Below, one piece after another: positions 2,865-16,180 of a stretch of 23,978 bases of DNA. How positions within the stretch are numbered: position 1 is the stretch's first letter; each line of letters starts with the position of its first letter. The stretch spans positions 1-23,978 of the forward strand of contig JAGWUK010000002.1 in the NCBI GenBank assembly GCA_028868455.1, given 5' to 3'. The translations under genes and the position numbers were made by a program. This DNA is from Burkholderiales bacterium. GTDB lineage: Bacteria; Pseudomonadota; Gammaproteobacteria; Burkholderiales; Burkholderiaceae_D. The notes under the pieces are model-generated. The model was given only the letters and a program-made list of their open reading frames with translations. It did no database searches and was not told the origin of the DNA.

Positions 2865-3530
2865 TTAGCCTGGTGCCGCTTGCCAATAATCGTGTAAATT
2901 AAAATGATCCAGTCCGCTGATGACAACATCTGCCTCCGTCAGGATAATTGCCTTGCCGATTCCCAGCGCAAACATGCCCGCCGATTTGATCGCGCGAATG
3001 CCGGCAATCGAATCTTCTACGCCCAGACAGTCTTGCGGTGCAAGCTGTAACTGTGCGGCGGCGGCCAGAAAAATTTCAGGATCAGGTTTGCTGTTGCGAA
3101 TACCGGCAGCATCCACCACGATATCGAACAGGCTGGTGATGCCCAGCATTTGTAAGACGGCACTGGCGTTTTTACTGACTGATGCCAGCGCTGTTTTCAA
3201 ACCGGCAGCTCGGACAGCCTGTAAAGCATCCGCCGCCCCCGGTAACAGATCGGCAGGTTGCATCACGGCGATCAGTTGTTGGTAATGGCGATTTTTTTGT
3301 TCGGCCAATGCCAGTTTTTCCTGTTCGCTGCATGATTTTCCTGCCGCCGCGAGTATCAGTTCCAGTGAGCCCATTCTGTCCACGCCTTTCAACTGTTCAT
3401 TGAAGGTCGCATCGAAATGACAGCCGAGGCTATTGGCCAGTTGCTTCCAGGCCAGATAGTGGTAATGCGCCGTGTCAGTCAGTACACCGTCCAGATCGAA
3501 AATCACGGCGCGGTAGGGATGTCTACGCAT
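2865..3530 (-). CDS. pgmB: Beta-phosphoglucomutase (HAD family)
   Basis: The enzyme converts beta-D-glucose 1-phosphate to glucose 6-phosphate, the step after a GH65 inverting phosphorylase. The 221-residue protein has the HAD motifs: FDLDGVLTDTA at about residues 10-20 (nucleophile and acid/base Asp), a cap domain with LKGVDR, ASVSKNA (motif II), NSKPDPEIF (motif III Lys) and GVEDSIAGI (motif IV). I placed the start at the ATG at 3530, giving the usual N-terminus MRRHPYRAVIFDLDG. A longer open frame reaches 3782 but only overlaps the phosphorylase gene. The start lies 8 nt inside the end of the phosphorylase gene, which implies translational coupling. Confidence 0.95.
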   Translation of the reverse strand: MRRHPYRAVIFDLDGVLTDTAHYHYLAWKQLANSLGCHFDATFNEQLKGVDRMGSLELILAAAGKSCSEQEKLALAEQKNRHYQQLIAVMQPADLLPGAADALQAVRAAGLKTALASVSKNASAVLQMLGITSLFDIVVDAAGIRNSKPDPEIFLAAAAQLQLAPQDCLGVEDSIAGIRAIKSAGMFALGIGKAIILTEADVVISGLDHFNLHDYWQAAPG

Positions 3531-5952
3531 GTTGTGGCTCCTGAAAAGAAAACGGGACGTGTTCCAGCGCACCCTGGCCATTGAGCGTAATGCGTTGTTC
3601 ATGATGGAGTAATTGCAGGGATTGCCCGCGTAACAAGCAGTAGCTGACCTGCTGACGGTCAACGCGTACCTGCAATAACTGCCCCTGAAAATGGATATGA
3701 AACTGGTAGTGTTGCCATTGCGGCGGCAATACCGGGGCAAAACGCGGTAGCTCATGAACGATACGCAAGCCGGCAAATCCATACGCGATGCCCAGCCATG
3801 TGCCAGCCATCGCTGCCGTGTGCACGCCGTAATGCGTGTTGCCGTGTGTGTCGTCCAGGTCTAGCCGCGCGGTTTGCATGAAGTAGGCATAGGCTTTGTC
3901 CTGATAACCGATTTCATTCGCGATGATGCTGAAAATGCAGGTCGACAGCGAGGAATCATGCGTCGTGACTTTTTCATAAAAATCAAAATCGCGGCGCTTA
4001 TCTTCCAGAGAAAACTGCTCGCTCAACAGCAGCAAAGCCAGCACCACGTCGGCCTGTTTGCAGACCTGGTGACGGTAGATCACCAGCGGATGATAGTGCA
4101 GCAGCAGCGGATAATTATCGGCTGGCGTGTCTTTGAAATTCCACGGTTTTTTGGACAGGAACGCGTCATCCTGCGCATGGATTCGCAGCGCCGCATCGTA
4201 GGGTAAAAACATCTGTTCGGCGGCTCTTTCCCATGCATTGATTTCGTCTGCGCTGAGGCTCAGGGTTTGTCTGAGCTGCTGCCATTTTTCCGCGTGATGT
4301 TGTGCCAGCTCCATCGCGATTTGTGCTGCAAAACGCAAATGCATCTGCGCCATGGCATTCGTGTAGTAGTTGTTGTTAACCAGCGCCGTATACTCATCCG
4401 GGCCGGTGACTTCATTGATACAGAATTGTTCGCGGCCAGTCGCGCCATTGCTGGAAAAATGGCCGAGTTCCATCCATAGTCGGGCCGTCTCCAGGACTAT
4501 TTCTGCACCTTGTTCCAACAAAAATTCGGTGTCGCCTGTGACTTGCAGATACAGCCGGATAGCGTAGGCGATATCGGCATTGATGTGGTATTGCGCCGTG
4601 CCTGCCGGGAAATATGCGGAGCATTCTTCTCCGGCGATGGTGCGCCACGGATACAGCGCGCCTTTGCTATGGGCCATCTGGCGTGCGCGAGTGCGTGCTT
4701 GCGGCAGATACTGGTAGCGGTATTCCAGCAGCTTCCTGGCAATTTCCGGTTTGTTGTACAGGAAAAAAGGAAAGATATAAATTTCCGTATCCCAGAAATA
4801 ATGCCCTTCATAGCCTTCACCAGTCAGTCCTTTGGCTGCAATATTGGTTTTGCCGTCGCGACCGACCGATTGCAGCAAATGAAACTGGTTGAAATGCATG
4901 CCTTGTTGCAGGGCATCGTCGCCTTCAATCTCCACGTCGGCTTGTTGCCAGAAATCGTCCAGATACGCTTGTTGTTGTGCCGCCAGTTCCTTAAAGCCGC
5001 TGGCCTGTGCTTGTGCCAATAGTTGCTGCGCCAGCAGCGTCAATTGCGTTTCGGGAAAATCGCGAGACGAGTGATAGCTGGCGTACTTGCATAGTTGTAC
5101 AGGCTGGTGACGACTTAGCTTTACCGTAAATATTTGCTCCAGCAACTTGCCATGCTGTGCATGGGCAGCCTCAAACGTCTGTTCGCACAGCAGGTGGTTT
5201 TGCATCGCTGTGCACAGTGTGAAACCGCTGTTGTGGGTGCGGTGTGTCAGTGCCGCGAAATTTCCTTGCCATTCCTCGCCAATCTGCTCCAATGCTGCGC
5301 CGCTGATCGCCGAGCCGACGCGCGGATCGTCACCAGCAGCCATATTGCTGACCTGACCATTGAGTGCAGAAATCAGTTGTATCGTGCCGTCAAAATTTAA
5401 GGGGGTCACTTCGTAACGGATGGCAAACAAGTTGGGATGCCGGAAGCTGACCAGCCGTTCGCTATGCACGCGCACGCGTCGTCCTGACGGCGACAGCCAG
5501 ACCAGCGAGCGTGTCAGCAACCCGGTGCGGAAATCCAGCGTGCGCTGATAGCTTTCCAGCGTGCCGGTACGCGGGTCAAAATCTTCATTTTCCAACCGGA
5601 GACGCAGGCATTTTGCATTCGGCACATTCAGCATGAATTGATTCGTGCGCGCCAGTCCGCAGGCATTTTCCGGATAGTGAATTGCTTCGGATTCGTAAAA
5701 TCCATTCAGATAACTGCCATCCAGCGATTGCCCTTCGGCTCCGCTATACCCTTCTTCTTCCGTTCCGCGCAGGCCGATATAGCCATTACCTACCGAGAAC
5801 AAGGTCTCGCGCAAGAAATGCGTGTCGTCGGCAGGCTCGTTTTCTGTAATTCGCCAGGCCTCCAGTGGGAGAGTATGGTGCGCTGCATGCAGTTTTTGCA
5901 CGGGATTTTCCTTCATTGTTATTGGCAGGGCGGCGATCGTCTCCAACGCCAT
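3523..5952 (-). CDS. GH65 family alpha-glucoside (disaccharide) phosphorylase
   Basis: The 809-residue protein has the GH65 layout: N-terminal beta-sandwich (about 20-290), helical linker, (alpha/alpha)6 catalytic barrel (about 350-720) and a small C-terminal beta domain. The catalytic acid is expected at Glu520 in GPDEYTALVNNNYYTN. The phosphate-binding loop HDSSLS is at about 665-670, and KQADVV at about 632-637 also matches the family. Such enzymes phosphorolyse maltose, trehalose, kojibiose or nigerose to beta-glucose 1-phosphate. The GPDEYTALVNNNYYTN form does not let me assign one substrate safely. A downstream start at 5916 (MKENPVQ) is possible; neither start has a strong ribosome site. 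There is no signal peptide, so it is cytoplasmic. It has its own promoter with LacI-type operators (5967-6024) and is coupled to pgmB. Confidence 0.93.
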   Translation of the reverse strand: MALETIAALPITMKENPVQKLHAAHHTLPLEAWRITENEPADDTHFLRETLFSVGNGYIGLRGTEEEGYSGAEGQSLDGSYLNGFYESEAIHYPENACGLARTNQFMLNVPNAKCLRLRLENEDFDPRTGTLESYQRTLDFRTGLLTRSLVWLSPSGRRVRVHSERLVSFRHPNLFAIRYEVTPLNFDGTIQLISALNGQVSNMAAGDDPRVGSAISGAALEQIGEEWQGNFAALTHRTHNSGFTLCTAMQNHLLCEQTFEAAHAQHGKLLEQIFTVKLSRHQPVQLCKYASYHSSRDFPETQLTLLAQQLLAQAQASGFKELAAQQQAYLDDFWQQADVEIEGDDALQQGMHFNQFHLLQSVGRDGKTNIAAKGLTGEGYEGHYFWDTEIYIFPFFLYNKPEIARKLLEYRYQYLPQARTRARQMAHSKGALYPWRTIAGEECSAYFPAGTAQYHINADIAYAIRLYLQVTGDTEFLLEQGAEIVLETARLWMELGHFSSNGATGREQFCINEVTGPDEYTALVNNNYYTNAMAQMHLRFAAQIAMELAQHHAEKWQQLRQTLSLSADEINAWERAAEQMFLPYDAALRIHAQDDAFLSKKPWNFKDTPADNYPLLLHYHPLVIYRHQVCKQADVVLALLLLSEQFSLEDKRRDFDFYEKVTTHDSSLSTCIFSIIANEIGYQDKAYAYFMQTARLDLDDTHGNTHYGVHTAAMAGTWLGIAYGFAGLRIVHELPRFAPVLPPQWQHYQFHIHFQGQLLQVRVDRQQVSYCLLRGQSLQLLHHEQRITLNGQGALEHVPFSFQEPQHA

Positions 5953-5966
5953 TGTCCGGTCGATGA

Positions 5967-5988
5967 AAATTTTAACCGGTTTGAATTT
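5967..5988. promoter_or_regulatory. Second LacI-type operator at the GH65 promoter
   Basis: A 22-bp near-palindrome (9 of 11 base pairs symmetric) with core AACCGGTT has its centre 32 bp, about three helical turns, from the spacer palindrome, and lies just downstream of the -10. It shares AACCGGTTTGAA with the first site, so the same regulator probably binds both. Confidence 0.75.
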
Positions 5989-5994
5989 AAATTT

Positions 5995-6024
5995 ATTCTA
6001 TTTCAAACCGGTTTGAAAAGTCAA
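5995..6024 (-). promoter_or_regulatory. Promoter of the GH65-pgmB operon with an operator filling the spacer
   Basis: On the minus strand TTGACT (6024-6019) and TAGAAT (6000-5995), each 5/6 to sigma-70 consensus, are separated by exactly 18 bp. That spacer is itself a perfect 18-bp palindrome with ACCGGT core (6001-6018). A protein bound there would occlude RNA polymerase directly. This is a sequence reading; the transcription start is not mapped. Confidence 0.85.
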
Positions 6025-6132
6025 TTTAGTTTTATTTTGCAGAGGAATGCTGCGTTCCGGCGGTTTAAAGCGTGGAGTGGGGGGGGGCTTATCCTGGCTC
6101 GATTGGCCGGTAGCGACCAATCCGATCAGAAC

Positions 6133-7143
6133 TCAGGTCTGGCGTATGACCAGTGTGGTCGGAAGGACTTCGGAATTGACGACTTCGCCGTTAATCAGAT
6201 CAAGAATTTTTTTCGCCAGCAATACGCCACCGTCGCGCAAATATTGATGAACGCTGGTCAACGGCGGAACAAAGCTGGCAGCACCTGGCGTGTCATCGTA
6301 TCCGACAACCGATACATCGCCAGGCACTGATAAGCTGCTTTCATTGATGGCGCGTATCGCCCCCATCGCCAGTAAATCGCTGGCGGCGAAAACCGCGTCG
6401 AAGTTTTTTCCGTGCTGGCGCAGGTGATTCGTCATGCTGTCAAAGCCGGCCTCAAACGTAAACGCGGCCGGTTGCACAATCGTGACGGACTGTTTGTTTT
6501 CTCCGAGCGCATCGACGAATCCTGCGCAGCGCTCCTGGACTTCGGCATGATTGATGTCGCCCAGAAAAATTAATCGCTGGCGGCTTTGTTCGATAAAACG
6601 TTGGCCGACGCTGGCACCGCCTTTGCGGTTATCGCTGCCGACCACGATGCAGGCCGGATCGGTGTCCGGCGCACCCCAGACGACCAAGGGCAAGCCGGAT
6701 CGTTGTAAATGTCTGACCGCTTCACCGTGCGAGCCCTGACCCAGCAAAATCAAGCCGTCTGCCGCTTGCACAGGTGGCGTGTCCAGCAACTGCAACGAAG
6801 TCAGTACGACGCTATAGCCAGCGGTCGTCAACTCCTGGGTAATGCTGCCCAACAGTTCCAGCGGGTAAGGGTCGGACATCGGCCTGTCTCTGGCAGGTGC
6901 CATTTCGACGACCACTGCTACTGAATGACTGCGGCGCAAACGCAGATTCCGCGCGCTGATGTTGAACCGGTATCCCTGGTCTTCGGCGATTTTGCGGATT
7001 TTTTCGCGGGTTTCCACGGTGACCAGCGGACTGTCGCGCAACGCACGTGAGACTGTAATCGTCGATACCCCGGCGATCTGCGCCAGATGCTCCATGGTGA
7101 CGCCAGATTCGTTGCTACGCTTACCGGTCTTTTTCGCGGGCAT
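6133..7143 (-). CDS. LacI-family transcriptional regulator (sugar locus, proximal)
   Basis: The 336-residue protein starts with a basic leader (MPAKKTGKRSNESG), then a helix-turn-helix at about residues 18-38 (TMEHLAQIAGVSTITVSRALRD), hinge helix (about 65-72, SARNLRLRRS) and a full ligand-binding domain (VVGYDDTPGAASFVPPLTSVHQ near the C-terminus is typical). It lies upstream of, and in the same direction as, the GH65 gene, and is divergent from the TonB-dependent receptor. The HTH differs from that of the other LacI protein here, which fits two operator types in the locus. The tandem ATCGAT-core sites at the receptor promoter are its most natural target, by position only. An alternative start is Met17. 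Confidence 0.92.
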   Translation of the reverse strand: MPAKKTGKRSNESGVTMEHLAQIAGVSTITVSRALRDSPLVTVETREKIRKIAEDQGYRFNISARNLRLRRSHSVAVVVEMAPARDRPMSDPYPLELLGSITQELTTAGYSVVLTSLQLLDTPPVQAADGLILLGQGSHGEAVRHLQRSGLPLVVWGAPDTDPACIVVGSDNRKGGASVGQRFIEQSRQRLIFLGDINHAEVQERCAGFVDALGENKQSVTIVQPAAFTFEAGFDSMTNHLRQHGKNFDAVFAASDLLAMGAIRAINESSLSVPGDVSVVGYDDTPGAASFVPPLTSVHQYLRDGGVLLAKKILDLINGEVVNSEVLPTTLVIRQT

Positions 7144-7586
7144 TCAGTACTCTTGTGTGGTTGAAAAAATGGGAATAGCAGAAAAAATTGCTGCGTACCG
7201 ACAGATTAGCGCTGCATGGACATGCAGGTAATAACTGGTGCCGCAACTGCATTTTCTGCGCACATTATGACAGAGCTTATTTGTGCATGGTAAGTGCGCC
7301 GCTTACCGGGTTGGTCAGACCTGGTATTGCGCAAAGGCCTGGACAAGCCAGGCTAACGAGCCGCAAGAACACGCATTTGCAGAATTGCGACACTAAATGA
7401 CATCGATAACATTTAAATTGACATCGATAACATTTATTGTTTCAATGACGTACGTCTTCACATCTTTTCATTTGAATCTGCGCAAAAACAGGTTCGTTTA
7501 GGAAATGAAGTATCAGGATGAGGAATCGCGGGCCTGGCTTGCTATTCTGGGGACGAATAACCTGCACAATAAATGGGGACAATCCA
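7144..7586. other. 443-bp divergent intergenic region (LacI / TonB receptor)
   Basis: No convincing gene is present. Besides the promoter and tandem operators at 7394-7446 there are three short dyads: CTGCATG-GA-CATGCAG (7212-7227), GGTAAG/CTTACC with a 7-nt loop (7289-7307) and GCCTGG/CCAGGC with a 5-nt loop (7337-7353). None is followed by a T-tract, so none looks like a terminator. The first could be another operator. Confidence 0.6.
7394..7446 (+). promoter_or_regulatory. Tandem operators and promoter of the TonB-dependent receptor
   Basis: An 18-nt sequence, TGACATCGATAACATTTA, is repeated exactly at 7398-7415 and 7419-7436, a 21-bp offset that puts both on the same DNA face. The first copy lies in a 22-bp near-palindrome (7394-7415, 9 of 11 pairs) with ATCGAT core, a LacI-family style of site. 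The second contains a perfect -35 TTGACA (7418-7423). A weak -10 TTCAAT (7441-7446) follows at 17 bp. Repressor binding at the second copy would block the -35. Confidence 0.75.
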
Positions 7587-10058
7587 ATGAAAAGTAATGA
7601 CAAATTCTTGTTGTCGTCGATCACGCTCGCCGTGCTGACGCTGACGAACCAGGCCTATGCACAAGAAGCAGCCAATAATACCGTCGCTGCACCGAGCGCG
7701 GCCGTGAAACCTGCCGCGGATTCTGTGCCGGCTGAAGTCCAGCAAGTCGTGGTGACCGGAAATACCAAAAATGGCGGTTTGCGCAAAATTGACGCATCGT
7801 ATTCGATTACGACGGCCAGCGAAGAGCAATTGAAACAAGCCGCGCCCAGCAGCACTGCCGATCTGATGAAAATTGTTCCCGGCGTGTATGCCGAATCCAG
7901 CGGTGGCAATGCGGGTGCGAATATCGGTGTGCGCGGATTTCCTATCGATGGCGATGCACCGTTCGTCACCATACAATTGAACGGCTCGCCCTTGTTTCCA
8001 CCGCCGACTTTGTCTTTCCTCGAAGGCTCGTCGCTGTTCCGGATCGATGATACGGTCGAGCGCGTCGAAGTATTGCGTGGCGGACCAAGCCCGATATTTT
8101 CTAATGGCCAGCCTGGCGCGACCATGAATTTTCTGCTGAAAAAGGGGACGGACGTCGCCGATGGCAGCCTGCGTGCAACAGTTGGCACCGGCAATCTGCG
8201 TCGCTTTGACGGTTTTTACGGCGGTAAAATCGCCAATGGCTGGTATGGGTCGATAGGTGGTTTTTATCGCGTTGCGCAGGGCGTGCGTGACGGCCAATAT
8301 CCTGCCGATGACGGCGGTCAACTGACGGCGACCGTAACGCATAAACTGGATCAGGGCGAAGTCACCGTTTATGCCCGCACGACGAATGAAAAAAACACGT
8401 TTTATACCGGCGTTCCGCTGATATCAGCGAAGACCGCAGGCGGCGATCCTACTGCGTTTCCGGGGTTTGATCCTTTGACAGGTTCTTTCTATGGGAACGA
8501 ACTGCGCAATGTCGCTCTCGAAGTCGGCCCAGGGCAGGTCATCAATAAAGATCTGGCCGACGGTCGCGGTTTGCAGGCAAATCTGTTTGGTGTCGATTTT
8601 GAGCAAAATATCAATGGCTGGAGCGTCAGCAATAAGCTGAATCATTTTTCCGGCGACGCGCCGACGCTGGCGATTTTTACCGGCAATAGTCCCGTCAGCA
8701 TGAGTAGTTACCTGAACACGGCAATTCAGTCTGCCAACGCGCAGGCAAATGTCGTCAGCGCGGCTGGCGGCAAAATGGCAACGACCGGAACGGCGACGTA
8801 TCTGAACGGTGGCGGTGCCGTTGACGGCAATCAGCAAGTTATGTCAGCTGGCATCTGGTCTGTCGAGAAAAAAATCAAATCCTTTACGGACGAATTGCGC
8901 GTGAGCAAAGAGATCGTCAAAGATCACACGATGACGGCCGGTCTGTATTACGCCGATTACTCATCGAAAGATATGTGGTATCTCGGCAATAGCGTTTTAA
9001 TGACCGCCACGCCCAATGCGCGCCCGATCAATCTTAGTTTGAATAACGGCGTGGTGGTCAGCGGTAATGGTCACGACGGTGCTTCGTTTTACACCTTGAA
9101 TGAAAACTTCTCGGCGCAAAACACAGCCATTTATCTGGCCGATGAATGGAAAGTCAGTGATCGCATTCGGGTAGATGCAGGTCTGCGCAGCGAGTCGCGC
9201 CGGCTGAATGGCGTGATTTCCAATCCTAAGTCCGTTGATCTGGATAACAATCCGCTAACCTTGTACAACAACAATGCGTCGGTATTGAGCGGCTCGAATA
9301 AACCCGTCAATCGCAACGATAGTGAGATGTCGTATACCTTGGGCGGTAATTACAAAGTCTCGCAAAATTTCAGTGTATTTGCGCGCTTGAATTCTGGGTT
9401 CGCTTTGCCGCAGTTCGATACCATTCGCGACAACGGCGTCGATACCGTGGTGACCAGGGTCAAGCAATATGAAATTGGCTTGAAGGCAGTCACTGAAAAA
9501 TACAGCGCCTATCTGACTTTCTTCCATAATAAATTCACTGGTTTGCCGTTCCAGCAATTTCTGGCGGACGGCAGTAATGTGACCGCGATCGGAGGTTCCA
9601 GCGGGTCGGGTCTGGAATTCGAAGTAGCCGCGCGGCCTGTTAAAAATTTCCAGATTTCGCTGAGCGGCGCTTATCAGGAATCGAAATACGAAAACTATGG
9701 AGCCAATACAGGAAACGAAGTGAAGCGTCAGCCTAAACTGCAATTCCGTCTGTCGCCGAGTTATCGCATTCCGCTTGATACCAGCAATGTCAAGATTTAC
9801 GGAACATATACCCACGTTGATGCGCGTTTTGCCGACGCCGAAAATCAGCAGGCATTACCGAAGTACTACACACTCGATGCTGGTGTATTGGTCAGCCTTG
9901 GCGAGAACCTTGAGTTCCGTCTCGCGGGCACCAATCTGACCAATCAACTCGGTCTGACCGAAGGCAATTCCCGTGTGATCGGCAGTGGCAGCAGCGTCGT
10001 GTTTGCAAGACCAATATTTGGTCGCGCAGTGGAAGCATCCGTGGTCTACCGTTTCTAA
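7587..10058 (+). CDS. TonB-dependent outer-membrane receptor (probable oligosaccharide uptake)
   Basis: The product is an energy-coupled outer-membrane importer. I chose the ATG at 7587, not an upstream in-frame ATG at 7518. It has a GGGGA ribosome site 7 nt away and begins a clear signal peptide (25 residues, ending NQAYA before QEA). The 823-residue protein then has a Pro/Ala-rich linker, a TonB-box-like VQQVVVTG, a plug domain (about 65-180, with STADLMKIVPGVY, IGVRGF and ERVEVLRGGPSPIF) and a 22-strand-type barrel ending in VVYRF with the terminal Phe of outer-membrane proteins. The signal-transducing N-terminal domain of FecA types is absent. Position opposite a LacI regulator and next to phosphorylase, mutase and permease genes argues for a sugar rather than a siderophore. 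Confidence 0.93.
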   Translation: MKSNDKFLLSSITLAVLTLTNQAYAQEAANNTVAAPSAAVKPAADSVPAEVQQVVVTGNTKNGGLRKIDASYSITTASEEQLKQAAPSSTADLMKIVPGVYAESSGGNAGANIGVRGFPIDGDAPFVTIQLNGSPLFPPPTLSFLEGSSLFRIDDTVERVEVLRGGPSPIFSNGQPGATMNFLLKKGTDVADGSLRATVGTGNLRRFDGFYGGKIANGWYGSIGGFYRVAQGVRDGQYPADDGGQLTATVTHKLDQGEVTVYARTTNEKNTFYTGVPLISAKTAGGDPTAFPGFDPLTGSFYGNELRNVALEVGPGQVINKDLADGRGLQANLFGVDFEQNINGWSVSNKLNHFSGDAPTLAIFTGNSPVSMSSYLNTAIQSANAQANVVSAAGGKMATTGTATYLNGGGAVDGNQQVMSAGIWSVEKKIKSFTDELRVSKEIVKDHTMTAGLYYADYSSKDMWYLGNSVLMTATPNARPINLSLNNGVVVSGNGHDGASFYTLNENFSAQNTAIYLADEWKVSDRIRVDAGLRSESRRLNGVISNPKSVDLDNNPLTLYNNNASVLSGSNKPVNRNDSEMSYTLGGNYKVSQNFSVFARLNSGFALPQFDTIRDNGVDTVVTRVKQYEIGLKAVTEKYSAYLTFFHNKFTGLPFQQFLADGSNVTAIGGSSGSGLEFEVAARPVKNFQISLSGAYQESKYENYGANTGNEVKRQPKLQFRLSPSYRIPLDTSNVKIYGTYTHVDARFADAENQQALPKYYTLDAGVLVSLGENLEFRLAGTNLTNQLGLTEGNSRVIGSGSSVVFARPIFGRAVEASVVYRF

Positions 10059-10102: not shown

Positions 10103-10141
10103 AAGCGAGGCACTTCCCAACGGTGTCTCGCTTATTTTTTT
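10103..10141 (+). terminator. Rho-independent terminator of the TonB receptor gene
   Basis: An 11-bp stem (10103-10113 with 10123-10133, AAGCGAGGCAC against GTGTCTCGCTT, one G-U pair) with a 9-nt loop is followed by an A and seven Ts. It begins 44 bp after the receptor stop codon. Confidence 0.9.
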
Positions 10142-10221
10142 CCGACTCCGATGTCAGACGGCAAAAATGGAATGGAACTTTGGCGCAGTGTTGTCCGTCA
10201 GACCATTCTTTTGGGGGGGAA

Positions 10222-11301
10222 ATGGAAAAACAACGAATACTCGGCTACGACCTGGCCAGGTCGCTGGCCATTTTTGGCATGGTCTTTGTCAATTTCAAAG
10301 TCGTCATGCATGCGTCACCAGAAGCAGGGCACGAATGGCTGTCCATATTCAATTTTCTGGATGGACGCGCCTCATCGGTTTTCGTGGTGCTGGCAGGGAT
10401 CGGTGTCAGCCTGATGAGCAACAAGGCGCGCTTGAGCGGCGATGCAAAACGATACAGGCTGGTGCAGCGCAGCGTGATGAAGCGTGCATTGTTTTTGTTT
10501 ATCTTTGGACTTTCGTACATTGCTATCTGGCCGGCCGATATTTTGCATTTTTACGGCATCTATATGCTGTTTGGCGTTCTGTTGCTGTCATGTTCACCAA
10601 AAGTATTGCTGACGATTGCAGCGCTGCTTTCCATCGTGTTCACGATGTTGTTTTTTACATTGAATTACGGTGAAGCCTGGGACTGGACGAATTTATCGTA
10701 TGCCGATTTCTGGCAAGCACAGGGGTTTTTGCGCAATCTGTTTTTCAACGGCTTCCATCCCTTTTTTCCCTGGGCCGGTTTTTTTCTGATTGGCTTGATG
10801 CTCGGTCGCCTGAATATGCACAACGCGCAGACGCGATGGCGGATAGCGGTCTGGAGCGTCTGTGCAATCGTAGCGGCGGAGTTGTTGAGCTACATCCTAA
10901 AGTTTGTACTGGGTAATCAAGGCTGGGATGCAGAATCCATCGCCGTTCTGACATCGGTGCATCCTATGCCGCCTTTGCCGGTGTATTTTCTGTCGGCGAG
11001 CGGCAGTGCCTGTTTTCTCATTGTGATGTGCGTCGTGATGGGAGACCGGTTTTGTCAAGCTCGGTGGTTGACGCCGCTGGTCAATACGGGACAGTTGGCA
11101 CTCAGTCTGTATCTGGGCCATGTCATTGTTGGCATGGGAGCCCTGGAGGCCATGGGAATGCTGCATGCGCAGAGCATGGGATTTTCTGTTTTTAGCGCGA
11201 CTATTTTTTGTGCTGCCGCCATTATTTTCTCGCATGCCTGGCGCCATTATTTTGCGCAAGGTCCCATCGAATGGCTAATGCGCAAAGTGACGATGACGTA
11301 A
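10222..11301 (+). CDS. YeiB/DUF418-type polytopic membrane protein
   Basis: The 359-residue protein has about 9-10 hydrophobic segments. It opens with RILGYDLARSLAIFGMVFVNF, the N-terminal signature of the HGSNAT-like (DUF1624) acyltransferase module. It ends with the DUF418-like part (TGQLALSLYLGHVIVGMGALEAMG). Relatives such as E. coli YeiB have no established substrate; transmembrane acetyl or acyl transfer is inferred from the family. I placed the start at 10222 because it follows an exceptionally G-rich Shine-Dalgarno (seven Gs and an A, 10213-10220) and begins at the conserved motif. The upstream extension to 10123 would run through the receptor terminator. It seems to be a single gene, followed by the small-RNA array. 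Confidence 0.88.
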   Translation: MEKQRILGYDLARSLAIFGMVFVNFKVVMHASPEAGHEWLSIFNFLDGRASSVFVVLAGIGVSLMSNKARLSGDAKRYRLVQRSVMKRALFLFIFGLSYIAIWPADILHFYGIYMLFGVLLLSCSPKVLLTIAALLSIVFTMLFFTLNYGEAWDWTNLSYADFWQAQGFLRNLFFNGFHPFFPWAGFFLIGLMLGRLNMHNAQTRWRIAVWSVCAIVAAELLSYILKFVLGNQGWDAESIAVLTSVHPMPPLPVYFLSASGSACFLIVMCVVMGDRFCQARWLTPLVNTGQLALSLYLGHVIVGMGALEAMGMLHAQSMGFSVFSATIFCAAAIIFSHAWRHYFAQGPIEWLMRKVTMT

Positions 11302-11471
11302 ATGCTGCAAGCCGTTTGCAAGGTCAGAGACCCAAAAAAGCTTGTCTGTTACTGTGGAAAGATGTGCGCCGTCGTTGATTTCAATATTACCAATGAGATA
11401 TTCAATTGCGTGATGACTGGTATACAAAAAATAGTGGTGATAAATTTGCTGCACTGCGATAAAGTTGCACC

Positions 11472-11538
11472 TGTCTCCTCCAACACCTCCTAAGGTTTGG
11501 ATTTAGCCCGCAACCTTCAGGTCGCGGGCTTTTTTTTT
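11472..11538 (+). ncRNA. Small RNA, tandem copy 1 (anti-Shine-Dalgarno motif)
   Basis: The predicted RNA is about 67 nt. A -10-like TAAAGT (11460-11465) follows a -35-like GTGATA (11437-11442) at 17 bp. The RNA would begin near the invariant CTGTCTCCTCC. A hairpin follows (11479-11501: UCCAA pairs with UUGGA and ACCU with AGGU, with one bulged C and a CCUA loop). CACCTCCT (11484-11491) equals the anti-SD tail of 16S rRNA. It ends in a terminator with AGCCCGC/GCGGGCT arms, a larger inner loop than the other copies, and nine Ts (11530-11538). The 5' end is a prediction. Confidence 0.75.
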
Positions 11539-11689
11539 GTCGCTTATTTCAGAGGGCCACAATATCGGTCAACAAGTTCAAATACATTCTTGCAAGAAAT
11601 AAAATGCATACTCATTTATATTATTTGTGAATGATTGATATGTGAAAATTCTTATTGGTGAATTTGTTGCGACGCGATATAGTTACACC

Positions 11690-11752
11690 TGTCTCCTCCA
11701 ACACCTCCTAAGGTTTGGATTTAAGCCCGCAAACTTTGCGGGCTATTTTTTT
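11690..11752 (+). ncRNA. Small RNA, tandem copy 2 (anti-Shine-Dalgarno motif)
   Basis: The predicted RNA is about 63 nt and has the best -10 of the four: TATAGT (11678-11683, 5/6), with a poor -35-like TTGGTG at 17 bp. The CTCCTCC box is at 11693-11699 and the hairpin at 11697-11719. CACCTCCT at 11702-11709 is identical to copies 1 and 4. The terminator stem is 9 bp (AGCCCGCAA with TTGCGGGCT), followed by A and seven Ts ending at 11752. Its upstream flank is more AT-rich and diverged than those of copies 3 and 4. Confidence 0.75.
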
Positions 11753-11875
11753 GCCTGGAAGAAAAATATTTGCCAAATCCCTTTATTTTTCGGGACATGC
11801 GGTATACAAAATGCGAATGACAGATATGTGAAGAATAAAGCATACAAACATGCTGCATTGCAGTAAAGTTACTCC

Positions 11876-11937
11876 TGTCTCCTCCAACACCGTCAAAGGT
11901 TTGGACTTCAGCCCGCAAATTTAGCGGGCTTTTTTTT
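11876..11937 (+). ncRNA. Small RNA, tandem copy 3 (loop variant lacking CACCUCCU)
   Basis: The predicted RNA is about 62 nt. The -10-like TAAAGT is at 11864-11869 and CTCCTCC at 11879-11885. The hairpin at 11883-11905 keeps its UCCAA/UUGGA and ACC/GGU pairing, but the loop has changed so that CACCTCCT is replaced by CACCGTCA (11888-11895). The terminator is AGCCCGC, a 7-nt loop, GCGGGCT and a T run to 11937. It keeps one CCUCC core instead of two, so it may have different targets or be decaying. Confidence 0.72.
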
Positions 11938-12063
11938 CGCCTTGGAAAAAGCAACTTAAATCGTTCAGGCTTATAGATGTCGCCAAGATGTATACGAATT
12001 TAAAATAACTGATATGCGAAGAATAAAGCAGACAAAAATGCTGCGTCGCAGTAAAGTTACACC

Positions 12064-12126
12064 TGTCTCCTCCAACACCTCCTAAGGTTTGGACTTCAGC
12101 CCGCAAACTCTGCGGGCTATTTTTTT
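12064..12126 (+). ncRNA. Small RNA, tandem copy 4 (anti-Shine-Dalgarno motif)
   Basis: The predicted RNA is about 63 nt. The -35-like CAGACA (12029-12034) and -10-like TAAAGT (12052-12057) are 17 bp apart, with CTGCGTCGCAG, a dyad, directly before the -10. The CTCCTCC box is at 12067-12073, the hairpin at 12071-12093 and CACCTCCT at 12076-12083. The terminator arms are AGCCCGCA and TGCGGGCT, followed by A and a T run ending at 12126. The unit points toward the convergent DUF817 gene, 76 bp away. Confidence 0.75.
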
Positions 12127-12202
12127 GCCGTTAAGAAAGTATCCGATGCGGTTCAGGCTCATCCACGGACAAAGACCGTCGTGCTGTCGCAAAGCCTGTA
12201 TC

Positions 12203-13060
12203 TTAGTCCTGGGCAATATGTATATGCCGTTTGATGTGCTTCAGATGCGCAACGATCGTAAATGTCATGATCACTAACAGCGACCAAGAGCTCCATTTAC
12301 CGAGATGGACAGTCGACCAGGCGCCGATCTGGTTGGGGTAACGCCAGATGCCGAAAAACGTCCCCATATTTTCTGCCAGCCAGATAAAAAAGCCGATCAG
12401 CACAAATGCCAGCAATAAGGGCATGCTGCGGTCCCTATCCAGCGGGCGGAATACGACAGACGAGCGCGCATATAAACCCAGGGCACAAGCAGCCAGATAC
12501 CAGCGGATATCACCGATATAGTGGTGAGTAAAAAAATTCAGATAAATCAAACTGCCAATCAGTGCTGCCATCCAGTACGGCGGGTGATGGCGTACCCTGA
12601 GATCAAACAGGCGCCATGCCTGAATAATATAGCTGCCTATGCTGGCATACATAAAGCCGCTGAACAGCGGTACGCCCCACAGTTTGCTATAGCCAGGCTC
12701 TGGATAAGTCCAGGACTGGATACTGGTCGAAGTCTTGAATACTTCCAGCGCGAAACCGATCAGGTGGAACAAGGTGATGGCTTTTAATTCGTCAATGGTC
12801 TCCAGCCTGCTCCAGACCATGCCCGCCTGAATCAAAAGCGCGACGATGAACAGGACGTCGTAGCGCGCCAGCCCAAACAGGCCAGCTTTGGGAACAATCA
12901 GAATTGATGCAAAAAACAAACCGACAAACAGACAGGCGCGCAATTCTTTGATGCCGAAATACCAGAATTCGGTAAAAAAGCGGGCAACACCGTGAAGCTC
13001 TTTCGTTGCAGGTGGCTGTAGCAGGAATTGATCAATGGACGAGAGGCGCATGCCGCGCAT
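12203..13060 (-). CDS. DUF817 (YoaT-type) membrane protein
   Basis: The 285-residue protein has about eight hydrophobic segments and the conserved texture of DUF817 proteins (IQSWTYPEPGYSKLWGVPLFSGFMYASIGSYI, HHYIGDIRWYLAA, FFIWLAENMGTFFGIWRYPNQIGAW). The molecular function of this family is not known to me. It starts 4 nt after the allA stop codon, so it is probably the last gene of the uraH-puuD-alc-allA operon. That placement suggests, but does not prove, a role in ureide or purine metabolism such as transport. An alternative Met lies three codons downstream. The N-terminal 25 residues are soluble. Confidence 0.9.
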   Translation of the reverse strand: MRGMRLSSIDQFLLQPPATKELHGVARFFTEFWYFGIKELRACLFVGLFFASILIVPKAGLFGLARYDVLFIVALLIQAGMVWSRLETIDELKAITLFHLIGFALEVFKTSTSIQSWTYPEPGYSKLWGVPLFSGFMYASIGSYIIQAWRLFDLRVRHHPPYWMAALIGSLIYLNFFTHHYIGDIRWYLAACALGLYARSSVVFRPLDRDRSMPLLLAFVLIGFFIWLAENMGTFFGIWRYPNQIGAWSTVHLGKWSSWSLLVIMTFTIVAHLKHIKRHIHIAQD

Positions 13061-13064
13061 TGTA

Positions 13065-13586
13065 TCAAGTGCGCGCTGCGATCAGGCCTTCCTGTGTCAA
13101 TTGCCAGTCTGTTTCCGGGACAATTTCATCGCAATTGTGTCCCTGGCCTATCCTGTCCATGACAATAAAGTCGCTGATGCGATGCAGGGCAATTAACGGA
13201 TGATGCCAGACCCCGGGGGCATAATTGACTCCCTGAAAGCCACGGCAAAGGAAAGCCTTGATACGACTGGCGTCGAATTCACCGGCAGGGGCAACGACCA
13301 CCAGATATTCATCCTCGACTTGTTGCGAGAGCGGGACGAAGGCCTGGCTGCCAAACGGGTGCCTCTCCATAATCCGAATGGATAAAGGCAAAGACCGCGG
13401 CTGCGCGCGAAACAGGCTCAGTATGCACTGGCCGCCTTCAGCACTGGTATCGGCTGTTGCCAGTGCATGAAAGCGTTCTGTCGTTCCTTGATTGATCTGA
13501 TAATGGCGTGCGCCTTCCAGCATGATGACTTCGCCGAAAGGCGCGAAAGCTTCACGGCTGAGCGGGGCGATGGGCAAGGTGCGCAT
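13065..13586 (-). CDS. allA: Ureidoglycolate lyase
   Basis: The enzyme splits ureidoglycolate to glyoxylate and urea, the last step of allantoin use through allantoicase. The 173-residue length is usual for the family. Recognisable motifs are APFGEV near the N-terminus, [14 protein letters not shown] (about 73-86) and [16 protein letters not shown] (about 119-134), which form the cupin-like active site. It follows allantoicase by 17 bp and precedes the DUF817 gene by 4 bp, consistent with one operon. Confidence 0.95.
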
Positions 13587-13603
13587 GGTGTTCTCGCTCT
13601 CGC

Positions 13604-14614
13604 TCAGGCAAGTTTGCTCAACAAGCGCAGGCGCGAGACGCCGCCATCCGGGAAAATATTAAAGCGGATATGGGTAATTGGTCCCAGCGCCTGAATCTCT
13701 TGTGCAAAATAATGTTGATGATCCATTTGCAGTTTTTGCTGAGGCAATAAGACCGGCCAGAACATCGATTGCGTCACCAGGGAAGTTTCCGTACCACCCT
13801 GCATGAAGGCAGCCTGAATCGAGCAGGTATCTGGATAATTCCCTTTGAAGTGGCAAGTATCGACTTCAATCTTTTCTACTGTACCCGGATGCGCCAGCGC
13901 GATGATGCACCAGTCATTACCAGGTTCGCGGCGACGCCGGGTTTCCCAGCCATCACCCATATTGATGCCGCGACCCGGCATCAGCAGATTGCTGGCCAGA
14001 CCGAAATGCTGGTTATTGCTGGCAACGACATATCCACCGTTTTCCATGGCGATCAAGTCAAACAAACTATCGCGGTCGGCATGCGCCCAATCGTTTTGTG
14101 GTTGTCCGTAAACACGCAGGCGCGCAACACCGCCGTCCGGATAAATATGAAGCCGCAAATGCGTAAACGCCTGCGTACTTTCAATCGCGTGATAGTGATG
14201 CTGATTGCCTTGCAGGTTCACTGACGGCAGCACTTCTTGCCAGCTTGTCGTGTCATCTGGCTCACCCTGTATAACGAATGCACCCTCGATCGAAGCCGCA
14301 GGTGGATAGTTACCGGTAAAGTGACTGGTGTCGATATCCACACCTTGAAGAATGCCAGCGCGCGCCAGCCTGACCACGCACCAGTCGTGGCCATTGACAC
14401 GTTTGCGGCGCGATTCCCAGCCGTCCATCCATTTACCGTTCGTATCGTATTTACCGGGGACAAAGACCGCAGGCTCAGGATTGAGCATGCGCGCCATTTC
14501 CGCAAAAAAGTCGTCGCTGCACTGAATCGCGCGTGCGCCCAGTCGGGCATCAGCGAGATTCGGATAACGACGGCAGAAGTCGGGGGCATTGGGGTCGAGC
14601 GAAATGATGGCCAT
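13604..14614 (-). CDS. alc: Allantoicase
   Basis: The enzyme hydrolyses allantoate to ureidoglycolate and urea. The 336-residue protein contains the two internally duplicated jelly-roll halves of the family. One has [11 protein letters not shown]...[12 protein letters not shown]...[14 protein letters not shown], the other [11 protein letters not shown]...[12 protein letters not shown]...[14 protein letters not shown], with '[12 protein letters not shown]' or '[12 protein letters not shown]' closing each. I start it at 14614 ([13 protein letters not shown]), 19 nt after the puuD stop. A 26-codon longer frame would overlap puuD and adds non-family sequence. No strong ribosome site is visible, so translation may be coupled to puuD. 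Confidence 0.95.
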
Positions 14615-14633
14615 GTGCGAAAAATATGAAGGA

Positions 14634-15827
14634 TTATTTGGAATGTGCTGCGCCGGATTCGACCCACCGCGCAATGACTGCGCGTTCGTCATCAGTGATG
14701 TGAGTCAGGTTACCGAGCGGCATCAGTTTTTGCTGAACGACCTGCTGATAGATCAACTGTGAACGTGCCCTGATCAGCTCCGGTTTGTCCAGGATGACGC
14801 CTTTGGCCGGAAACTCCATCAAGCTCGGATGCTCACCATGACATTGAATGCAGCGCGCCTGCACAATTTGCTGAACTTCCGCGAACTGATCTTTGTCCGA
14901 TTTAACGTCCCCGGTCGCCTTTGTGACTGGGGCGATCCAGGCCGCAACACCAGCCAGAATGATGACGGCACCCAAAGGATATTTCCACTGCGTCCTGCCT
15001 TTATGTCGCAAGATAAAGAACTGCCTGACCAGCACACCAGCCAGCATAATCAGCACCAGTACCAGCCAGTTACTGGTGTGACCGTAAGTCATGCTGTAAT
15101 GATTGGACAGCATCGCGAACAGCACCGGCAATGTAAAGTAGGTGTTATGCACGCTGCGTTGCTTGCCGCGCTGCCCATGTACAGGATCAACCGCTTCGCC
15201 GGCTTTCATCGAGGCGACGACTTTGCGTTGACCCGGAATTATCCAGAAAAAGACATTGGCGCTCATGATGGTGGCAATCATGGCACCGATAATCAGAAAG
15301 GCAGCACGTCCGGAAAATAAATGGCAGGCGCCCCAGGCGGCGGCAATTACATAAGCCACAATCAATGTGGACAAAAGTTTTTCGTTCTTGCCAAAGAAGC
15401 GGCACAACAGGTCATACACGATCCAGCCCAGCGCCAGAAACCCCAGTGCGCAAAGTATCGCGGTCACCGGCGTCAAATCAGCGACGGCCGGATCAATCAG
15501 GTAGGTCCGGGCATTGAATATGTACACCAGCATAAACAGGCTGAAACCCGATAGCCAGGTGCTGTACGACTCCCAGTAAAACCAGTGCAGATGCTCAGGC
15601 AGGCGCGGTGGGGCGCCAAGATATTTTTGCGGGTTATAAAAACCGCCGCCATGCACAGCCCACAATTCACCGCCGACACCCTGCTGTTTTAATTGCGGAT
15701 CCGTCGGCGCGACCAAATGGTTGTCCAGCCAGACAAAGTAAAAAGACGATCCTATCCAGGCAATTGCGACAATCACATGCAACCAGCGCAACAGGAGATT
15801 GGCCCAGTCAAACAGATAAGCTTCCAT
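14634..15827 (-). CDS. puuD: Membrane urate hydroxylase with C-terminal cytochrome c domain
   Basis: This is the PuuD-type urate oxidase (DUF989), which makes 5-hydroxyisourate at the inner membrane and can pass electrons to the respiratory chain instead of producing peroxide. The 397-residue protein has about eight membrane segments through residue 305, including the conserved [30 protein letters not shown] periplasmic cytochrome c domain follows, with CIQCH at 326-330 and a likely axial Met in LMPLGN (about 369). Its ATG overlaps the uraH stop by one base (TGATG). No soluble uricase occurs in the window, so this is the urate-oxidising step of the pathway. Confidence 0.95.
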
Positions 15828-16180
15828 CAGCTGCCCCGGTAGGTTGAATAGCTCCAGGGAGTCGTCACCAGCGGAACATGGTAATGCTGACTGGCGTCGG
15901 CAACATTGAAGCGCAAAGTAACGATGCCGAGGAACGCAGGTTCGGGCAGGCTGGTACCCATTTGTTTAAAGTAGCTGCCGATATCGAAATCGAGTTCATA
16001 GGTGCCAGCCTCGAAGGCCGCGCCTTCCAGCAAAGGCTGATCGCAACGTCCGTCGGCATTGGTGTGCGTCTGACATAACAAATGTCGTTGTTGCTGCTCC
16101 GCGCGGTACAGTGCTACGGCGATGCCCTGACCGGGTTTGCCATGCGCAGTGTCAAGCACGTGTGTCGTCAAACGTCCCAT
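15827..16180 (-). CDS. uraH: 5-hydroxyisourate hydrolase
   Basis: This transthyretin-like enzyme opens 5-hydroxyisourate to OHCU, the step after PuuD. At 117 residues it has the family length. LTTHVLDTAHGKPG (about 4-17) carries the active-site His, and it ends in the diagnostic C-terminal YRGS. It is the first gene of the minus-strand operon. A GAGGAAAA ribosome site and a promoter with a perfect TTGACA and a palindromic operator lie upstream. It overlaps puuD by one base. Confidence 0.97.
   Translation of the reverse strand: MGRLTTHVLDTAHGKPGQGIAVALYRAEQQQRHLLCQTHTNADGRCDQPLLEGAAFEAGTYELDFDIGSYFKQMGTSLPEPAFLGIVTLRFNVADASQHYHVPLVTTPWSYSTYRGS

Follow-up and report, generated by a model that had tools for sequence, protein, structure and literature searches.

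The window, as we call the whole stretch of 23,978 nucleotides analysed here (contig 163 of a 4.1 Mb assembly in 879 contigs), carries four small RNA (sRNA) genes of a known family, RF02278, which lie head to tail on the plus strand between positions 11472 and 12126 and form an unusually large tandem array. A link of this array to PHB storage is probable. We lean towards a model in which each unit is transcribed separately under repression by PhaR and induction by PHB, and in which the RNAs act in trans by blocking selected ribosome-binding sites. The RNAs are widespread in the bacterial family sampled here, yet their name, Betaproteobacteria toxic small RNA, tells only of toxicity in E. coli. 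A PhaR site would provide a simple trigger, carbon storage, and would tie the RNAs to the catabolic genes which they seem to repress, in parallel to the alphaproteobacterial sRNA MmgR. Producers of PHB are also of industrial interest. New here are candidate PhaR-type operators; these and the conserved upstream boxes had been missed by the earlier reading of the sequence. The features of the array are as follows.

11450..11465, plus strand: promoter of copy 1, with PhaR-type operator motif TGCACTGCG (11450-11458) and -10 box TAAAGT (11460-11465)
11472..11538, plus strand: sRNA copy 1, RF02278; 67 nt with the T-run included, terminator stem at 11505-11530; 55.4 bits, above the gathering score; fold of -25.9 kcal/mol
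11668..11683, plus strand: promoter of copy 2, with PhaR-type operator motif TGCGACGCG (11668-11676) and -10 box TATAGT (11678-11683)
11690..11752, plus strand: sRNA copy 2, RF02278; 63 nt, terminator stem 11724-11744; 52.2 bits, above the gathering score; fold likewise computed
11854..11869, plus strand: promoter of copy 3, with PhaR-type operator motif TGCATTGCA (11854-11862) and -10 box TAAAGT (11864-11869)
11876..11937, plus strand: sRNA copy 3, RF02278-like; 62 nt, terminator stem 11910-11930; 43.6 bits, E 3e-7, below the gathering score
11989..12034, plus strand: upstream module of copy 4, with TAT-containing boxes at about -75 to -73 and -53 to -51 and an AT-rich stretch to about -35
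12042..12057, plus strand: promoter of copy 4, with PhaR-type operator motif TGCGTCGCA (12042-12050) and -10 box TAAAGT (12052-12057)
12064..12126, plus strand: sRNA copy 4, RF02278-like; 63 nt, terminator stem 12098-12118; 47.7 bits, E 2.7e-8, below the gathering score

Every unit has a -10-like box and a terminator of its own, as the earlier note had claimed from the sequence, and the lengths are 62-67 nt. The RNAs would begin at UGUCUCC (positions 11472, 11690, 11876 and 12064) and stop at their own terminators, ending with the T-runs at 11538, 11752, 11937 and 12126; relatives have been mapped by others. A search for repeats finds 93-nt copies spaced by 218, 186 and 188 nt. GUCUCCUCC and CUCCUCC are present in all four copies. 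The stretch CACCUCCU, which we take to be the 3′ tail of 16S rRNA, occurs in copies 1, 2 and 4, exactly as noted before; in copy 3 the loop is altered to CACCGUCAAAGG and CACCUCCU is missing.

The covariance model of RF02278 bears out both the four-unit array and the family membership that the earlier note had suspected, with scores of 43.6-55.4 bits at defined coordinates on the plus strand. In a search of 1 kb the E-values of copies 1-4 are 3e-10, 2e-9, 3e-7 and 2.7e-8, and thus a chance match is excluded. All copies match over the whole model. Copies 1 and 2 reach the gathering score of 50 bits and copies 3 and 4 narrowly fail it; we therefore regard the former as formal members and the latter as close paralogues. 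The array also shows the feature set of the family, that is, a 5′ UGUCUCCUCC, a hairpin and then a terminator hairpin with a T-run, and the host genus, presumably betaproteobacterial, agrees with the occurrence of the family in this class.

Each unit of the window folds as two hairpins with z-scores from -4.76 to -5.64, and none of 200 shuffles equals the fold of any unit. According to the predicted fold a stem takes up most of CACCUCCU, with just CCUA in the loop (copies 1, 2 and 4), and the unpaired part is the 5′ UGUCUCC. We aligned 52 hand-chosen sequences which represent this genus and nine others. In this alignment 89.3% of the pair cells are paired, and both partners vary in 10 of the 14 pairs. 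None of 500 shuffles is as high, and slid versions of the structure reach 47.0% at most. A scan of the genus kept 91 units after two false matches had been dropped. GUCUCCUCC is the most constant element with 89 of the 91 units, a count which is partly built in because a unit had to resemble the core closely to be picked up by the scan. The promoter and seed counts exclude three divergent copies (L039, L070 and L075). GTCTCCTCC is missing from two of them, and CACCTCCT and an operator at -22 are missing from all three; L039 has GUCUCCUCC, L070 and L075 do not, and the 88 units left have it throughout. CACCUCCU, in contrast, is present in 67 of the 91 units and absent from 24 (21 of the 88). 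The earlier emphasis on this 16S-like stretch as the key element can thus not be upheld.

The -10-like box lies at -12 to -7 relative to the start of UGUCUCC, in the window as well as in the 88 genus units aligned at this start. Between -22 and -15 the aligned units show a TGC-N3-GC element which resembles the PhbF site of Herbaspirillum (PMC3206438). According to that report, PhbF gives a footprint on TG[N]TGC[N]3GCAA, represses promoters and binds to PHB granules. The PhaR motif described for S. meliloti includes YGCRNYGCR, with the mmgR promoter as a listed target (PMC12542648), and MmgR is reported to be repressed by AniA (that is, PhaR), a conserved dyad being located between -35 and -10 (PMC8401924). 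In the window, YGCRNYGCR is found directly upstream of the -10 box at four of four promoters. It is present at -22/-21 in 77 of the 88 genus units (77 of 91 overall) as compared to 4 of 240 background windows, although the 88 units are not 88 independent cases because the sites share descent. At least one unit with the motif occurs in each of the 30 genus arrays, and 24 of 26 genus phasin genes have it as well. Six of the 11 units without it, from three related loci, read GCC in place of GCR. The narrower TGCN3GCA is too strict for the array, with only 20 of 88 units.

The gene for PhaR (PF07879) was found in all 13 genus genomes searched, the source genome included. Among the gapped patterns upstream of 26 genus phasin genes, TGC-N3-GCA ranks first (24 of 26, expected 2.1); four of 30 phasin loci had been dropped for an unclear start, one of which (L205) is probably a phasin. 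We built an operator matrix from 41 phasin TGC-N3-GCA sites with no sRNA promoters in the training set. This matrix matches 85 of the 88 sRNA promoters at a shuffle p ≤ 0.05 as compared to 5 of 60 background gene upstreams. It also matches 19 of 19 long-leader copies, where the site is placed differently, as compared to 8 of 60 background regions. The genus thus combines a PhaR gene with phasin-operator matches at the sRNA promoters, which is the sequence pattern of a PhaR regulon, and we infer that PhaR may control the promoters of the array. Of 12 phaR genes of the genus (one with a doubtful start), just 1 has TGCN3GCA in the upstream region scanned, unlike Herbaspirillum phbF.

The long-leader copies (L083-L112 and L010-L028) represent a second promoter class. 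Here the sRNA starts 38-72 nt past the start of TATANT, and therefore these RNAs may be processed, as S17 of Bordetella is. The source genome itself has a fifth, dispersed RF02278 copy (C830:5170-5230) with this different, S17-like layout. The best-scoring loci from 30 family genomes comprise 12 of the long-leader CACCCUCCUC class, which all have TGCN3GCA, and 18 others, which all lack it; in nine of the 12 its TGC begins exactly 22 nt before TATANT. For copies from nine other genera, YGCRNYGCR lies within 200 nt in 27 of 57 as compared to 6 of 60 background regions, and within 40 nt in 14 of 57; in one outside genome just two of the ten copies have TGCN3GCR at a distance of up to 200 nt. With just 27 of 57 outside copies we reject a universal PhaR operator across the family.

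The TAT boxes of the module listed for copy 4 have similar counterparts, 22 bp apart, before the other three window copies, and such boxes also precede many copies in the family. In the profile of the 88 units T at -73 reaches 93% and G at -53 reaches 83%, with an A-rich stretch at about -45. The protein that binds these boxes is perhaps an activator. PhaR is unlikely to be the sole input because its operator adjoins upstream boxes which some other factor may bind. As to the -35 region, TTGGTG or a similar sequence is seen by eye in many position-2 units, and others have no good match. Readings as sigma-54, sigma-28 or sigma-32 promoters, compared by eye with the consensus sequences, do not fit.

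It is possible, if doubtful, that another factor binds TGC-N3-GCR or that this element belongs to the core promoter, and that the sRNAs answer starvation or some other signal via the upstream boxes. The top upstream pattern of the family copies is indeed ATA-N5-TAT (26 of 57, expected 3.7) and not the operator. NtrC is described as a further activator of MmgR (PMC8401924), and the expression of Bordetella S17 has been linked to BvgA~P (PMC11722255). However, the element is detected by a matrix trained on phasins, it recurs at another promoter position in the long-leader loci and not in the 18 other loci, and it fits the published PhaR consensus (PMC12542648). Repression by PhaR hence remains our preferred reading. 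In the titles and abstracts searched we found no published link between RF02278 and PhaR; Fig. S3 of PMC5688073, on a Burkholderia upstream motif, may already show the operator.

The claim of the earlier note that the RNAs are complementary to ribosome-binding sites proved right. The complement of the first ten RNA bases is GGAGGAGACA, and a scan of 42 genus genomes for GGAGGAGACA-N2-10-ATG gives 33 sites; a pair of these are antisense to the sRNA genes themselves. The remaining 31 face 19 and 18 for two scrambled controls, and the bare count is therefore weak evidence by itself. Spacing and gene classes set the GGAGGAGACA sites apart from the controls better. The ATG follows at 2-5 nt in 29 of the 31 sites as compared to 10 of 19 and 9 of 18 in the controls (hand count). 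From the 30 of 33 sites which were fetched, four have no reading frame longer than 26 aa and the other 26 lead to 19 non-redundant proteins. Thirteen of the 19 belong to substrate transport or catabolism as compared to 3 of 20 proteins behind another Shine–Dalgarno sequence, the labels having been given post hoc and unblinded. The control proteins derive from 30 loci with 22 open reading frames of at least 60 aa, of which 20 were compared with Pfam.

The transport proteins include MFS and dicarboxylate symporters and a TRAP-type binding protein. Among the enzymes are a thiolase, an enoyl-CoA hydratase, an AMP-binding enzyme, a protein of the FAD monooxygenase type, a GH18 glycosidase, a lipase-type protein, a hydantoinase and an acetyl-CoA hydrolase. 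In the source genome the two genes with GGAGGAGACA code for a Pyr_redox_2 protein and the acetyl-CoA hydrolase, and relatives of the former, 87-99% identical among themselves, bear GGAGGAGACA in four other genomes examined. When the C is varied (GGAGGAGADA-N2-5-ATG), 37 matches are found, 22 with A, 8 with T and 7 with G, versus 29 with C (hand count). The C is thus enriched over G and T and only slightly over A, and part of the signal may be a favoured Shine–Dalgarno context. Since the extended matches often fall on genes for uptake and breakdown, targeted repression is favoured over a global brake, and the array RNAs probably silence genes for substrate uptake and breakdown. The targets published for RF02278 relatives are, as far as these sources describe them, of the same sort (PMC5688073, PMC11722255, PMC10987360). 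Phasins, which MmgR is thought to lower, are rejected as targets in this genus, as none of the 26 phasin ribosome-binding sites read has the extended match.

A global anti-Shine–Dalgarno brake, by which mimics of the 16S tail lower most translation or are toxic under stress, appears improbable to us. Such an action would suit the presence of CUCCUCC throughout the array and of CACCUCCU in three copies. The family was also named for its toxicity in E. coli (PMC5688073, PMC4603805), and overexpression of ncS27 is reported to slow the growth of B. cenocepacia (PMC5688073). Yet CACCUCCU is mostly paired and missing from 24 of 91 units, and the extended matches favour catabolic genes. S17S is described as causing no harm to exponential growth of E. 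coli BL21 and as slowing the entry into stationary phase only modestly (PMC11722255), and a review states that NcS27 overexpression slows growth on several substrates but not on others (PMC10987360). The dampening of translation foreseen in the earlier note is therefore not supported in its general form and is favoured for selected mRNAs, given that the extended matches cluster on catabolic and transport genes and that S17S regulates a set of targets. That no antitoxin is present is no puzzle, because targeted regulation is favoured and the relative S17S hardly impairs the growth of E. coli.

We regard it as very improbable that the array serves as a sponge which mops up Hfq or Shine–Dalgarno-bearing sRNAs instead of silencing mRNAs; the many similar copies (1-21 per matching genome) would agree with this, but the repression of BP2158 by S17S was demonstrated with a lacZ fusion (PMC11722255). 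A type I toxin–antitoxin system or a selfish repeat array, as tandem repeats and the family name might suggest, is hardly credible in view of the lack of any open reading frame of at least 90 aa within 11302-12202, the covariation of the RNA structure, the recurrence of DUF817 or allantoin genes next to 21 of 30 arrays in different species and the separate, conserved promoters.

On the reading which we prefer, targeted blocking under PhaR control, the array could work as follows. PhaR bound at YGCRNYGCR beside the -10 box would repress transcription. As PHB granules accumulate, PhaR would be drawn off and the sRNAs would be made. Their free 5′ end GUCUCCUCC, probably assisted by Hfq, would then pair with ribosome-binding sites whose complementarity extends beyond the plain Shine–Dalgarno core (GGAGGAGACA) and block translation. 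Judging by the target matches and the published relatives, this would chiefly affect genes for the uptake and breakdown of organic substrates. That the array signals carbon stores and holds back carbon intake suggests itself because MmgR is controlled by PhaR and because PhbF binds granules and represses. Extra copies might raise the dosage and could be tuned separately; units 1 and 2 would be the counterparts of the first two positions in the usual triple, with units 3 and 4 as two versions of position 3. The chances seem about even to us that RF02278 in this genus is the betaproteobacterial counterpart of the alphaproteobacterial MmgR, with granules titrating PhaR and an anti-Shine–Dalgarno battery shutting down carbon import and catabolism. 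If true, one storage-sensing repressor drives anti-Shine–Dalgarno sRNA families of two bacterial classes which are not joined by Rfam.

The array can be compared with several known systems. The double-hairpin RNAs ncS03, ncS05, ncS27 and ncS62 of Burkholderia cenocepacia are members of RF02278 and like the array RNAs have two hairpins, their own terminator and several genomic copies. Their length is similar (57-67 nt for three of them, 92 nt before processing for ncS27), and CU-rich stretches are likewise predicted to lie over ribosome-binding sites (PMC5688073). The Burkholderia copies are said to 'occur not in tandem', whereas the window has four in tandem with PhaR-type sites, and this work of 2017 states the regulator of RNA accumulation as unknown (PMC5688073). 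For Herbaspirillum seropedicae four RF02278 RNAs are among the reported sRNAs (PMC7011215). Bordetella pertussis S17S resembles the array RNAs as an RNA of 67 nt with a 5′ region conserved across Betaproteobacteria. It pairs with ribosome-binding sites through its Sites 1 and 2, and transporters are prominent targets, as among the candidates of the array (PMC11722255). S17S is described as the product of RNase E-dependent processing of a BvgA~P-linked RNA of ~190 nt (PMC11722255), whereas in the window a -10 box is located right before the short RNA; S17 was compared here by its description.

The alphaR8 sRNAs (RF00519), that is, Sinorhizobium MmgR and Caulobacter SisA-D, are also short and have several siblings in some genera, some of them adjacent. 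SisA-D share with the array a 10-mer anti-Shine–Dalgarno motif. The mmgR gene is repressed by AniA/PhaR and its promoter has a conserved dyad between -35 and -10 (PMC8401924, PMC12542648), and all four array promoters have a like motif near -10, the likeness being one of motif only. RF00519 scores 17.4-21.7 bits on the array and does not reach its gathering score of 41. Neisseria NmsRa and NmsRb are tandem siblings as well, with CU-rich anti-ribosome-binding-site stretches and a role in central metabolism (PMC5688073); their model (RF02877) gives 29.3 bits with copy 1 only, the gathering score being 52.

All 43 genus genomes carry RF02278 matches. None of 14 control genomes has a match at E ≤ 0.001, and 11 of the 14 have one at E ≤ 1. 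In a sample of the family 107 of 116 genomes are positive with 1-21 copies each. All nine negative genomes are small, at 1.7-2.6 Mb, and this absence is perhaps a loss along with genome reduction, possibly together with PHB storage; some small genomes of 2.2 and 2.5 Mb (G055 and G084) keep a copy. One family genome of 7.2 Mb (G136) has 20-21 copies, some of them in tandem or as divergent pairs. Outside the genus, two same-strand copies less than 1 kb apart are present in 13 of 40 genomes, a non-random set whose second batch of 20 family genomes was partly picked after pairs or high copy numbers had been seen. Tandem siblings thus recur in the family.

Within the genus we read one locus each from 39 of the 42 other genomes (all but G008, G020 and G025) as well as the window and the fifth copy. 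These 41 loci comprise 11 single copies, 11 pairs, 18 triples and one quadruple. Thirty of the 41 are hence arrays of 2-4 copies, and that of the window is the sole one with four units among them, which agrees with the earlier remark that such an array is notable. Upstream of the window array is a DUF418/HGSNAT gene (10123-11301, plus strand). Downstream (12203-16180, minus strand) follow genes for DUF817, ureidoglycolate lyase, allantoicase, a urate oxidase N-terminal domain and a HIUase/transthyretin-like protein, that is, a purine breakdown cluster. At 3523-10058 the window also contains a sugar cluster with a GH65 enzyme (minus strand), a LacI-type regulator (minus strand) and a TonB-dependent receptor (plus strand). 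The 21 arrays with DUF817 or allantoin-degradation neighbours are that of the window and 20 of the other 29; seven of the 20 have DUF817 only (one also DUF418) and 13 have allantoin genes. Within the stretch read, no such neighbours were found for the nine remaining arrays and for eight of eight single copies of the same class.

For the history of the array, we compared the window units with 18 three-unit arrays after trimming the first 30 RNA bases. Unit 1 comes closest to position 1 in 14 of these arrays and unit 2 to position 2 in 16, and position 3 is the best counterpart of unit 3 in 13 arrays and of unit 4 in 14. In a tree of 53 units window units 3 and 4 cluster with a local support of 0.879, with the long-branched position 2 of locus L050 inside the cluster. 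On the simplest reading of these likenesses the array would be a triple whose position 3 was doubled and whose copy 3 then lost CACCUCCU from its loop. Units 2 and 3 can also lie farther apart, with 0.8-3.2 kb from start to start in several other loci (L044, L049, L052, L057 and others).
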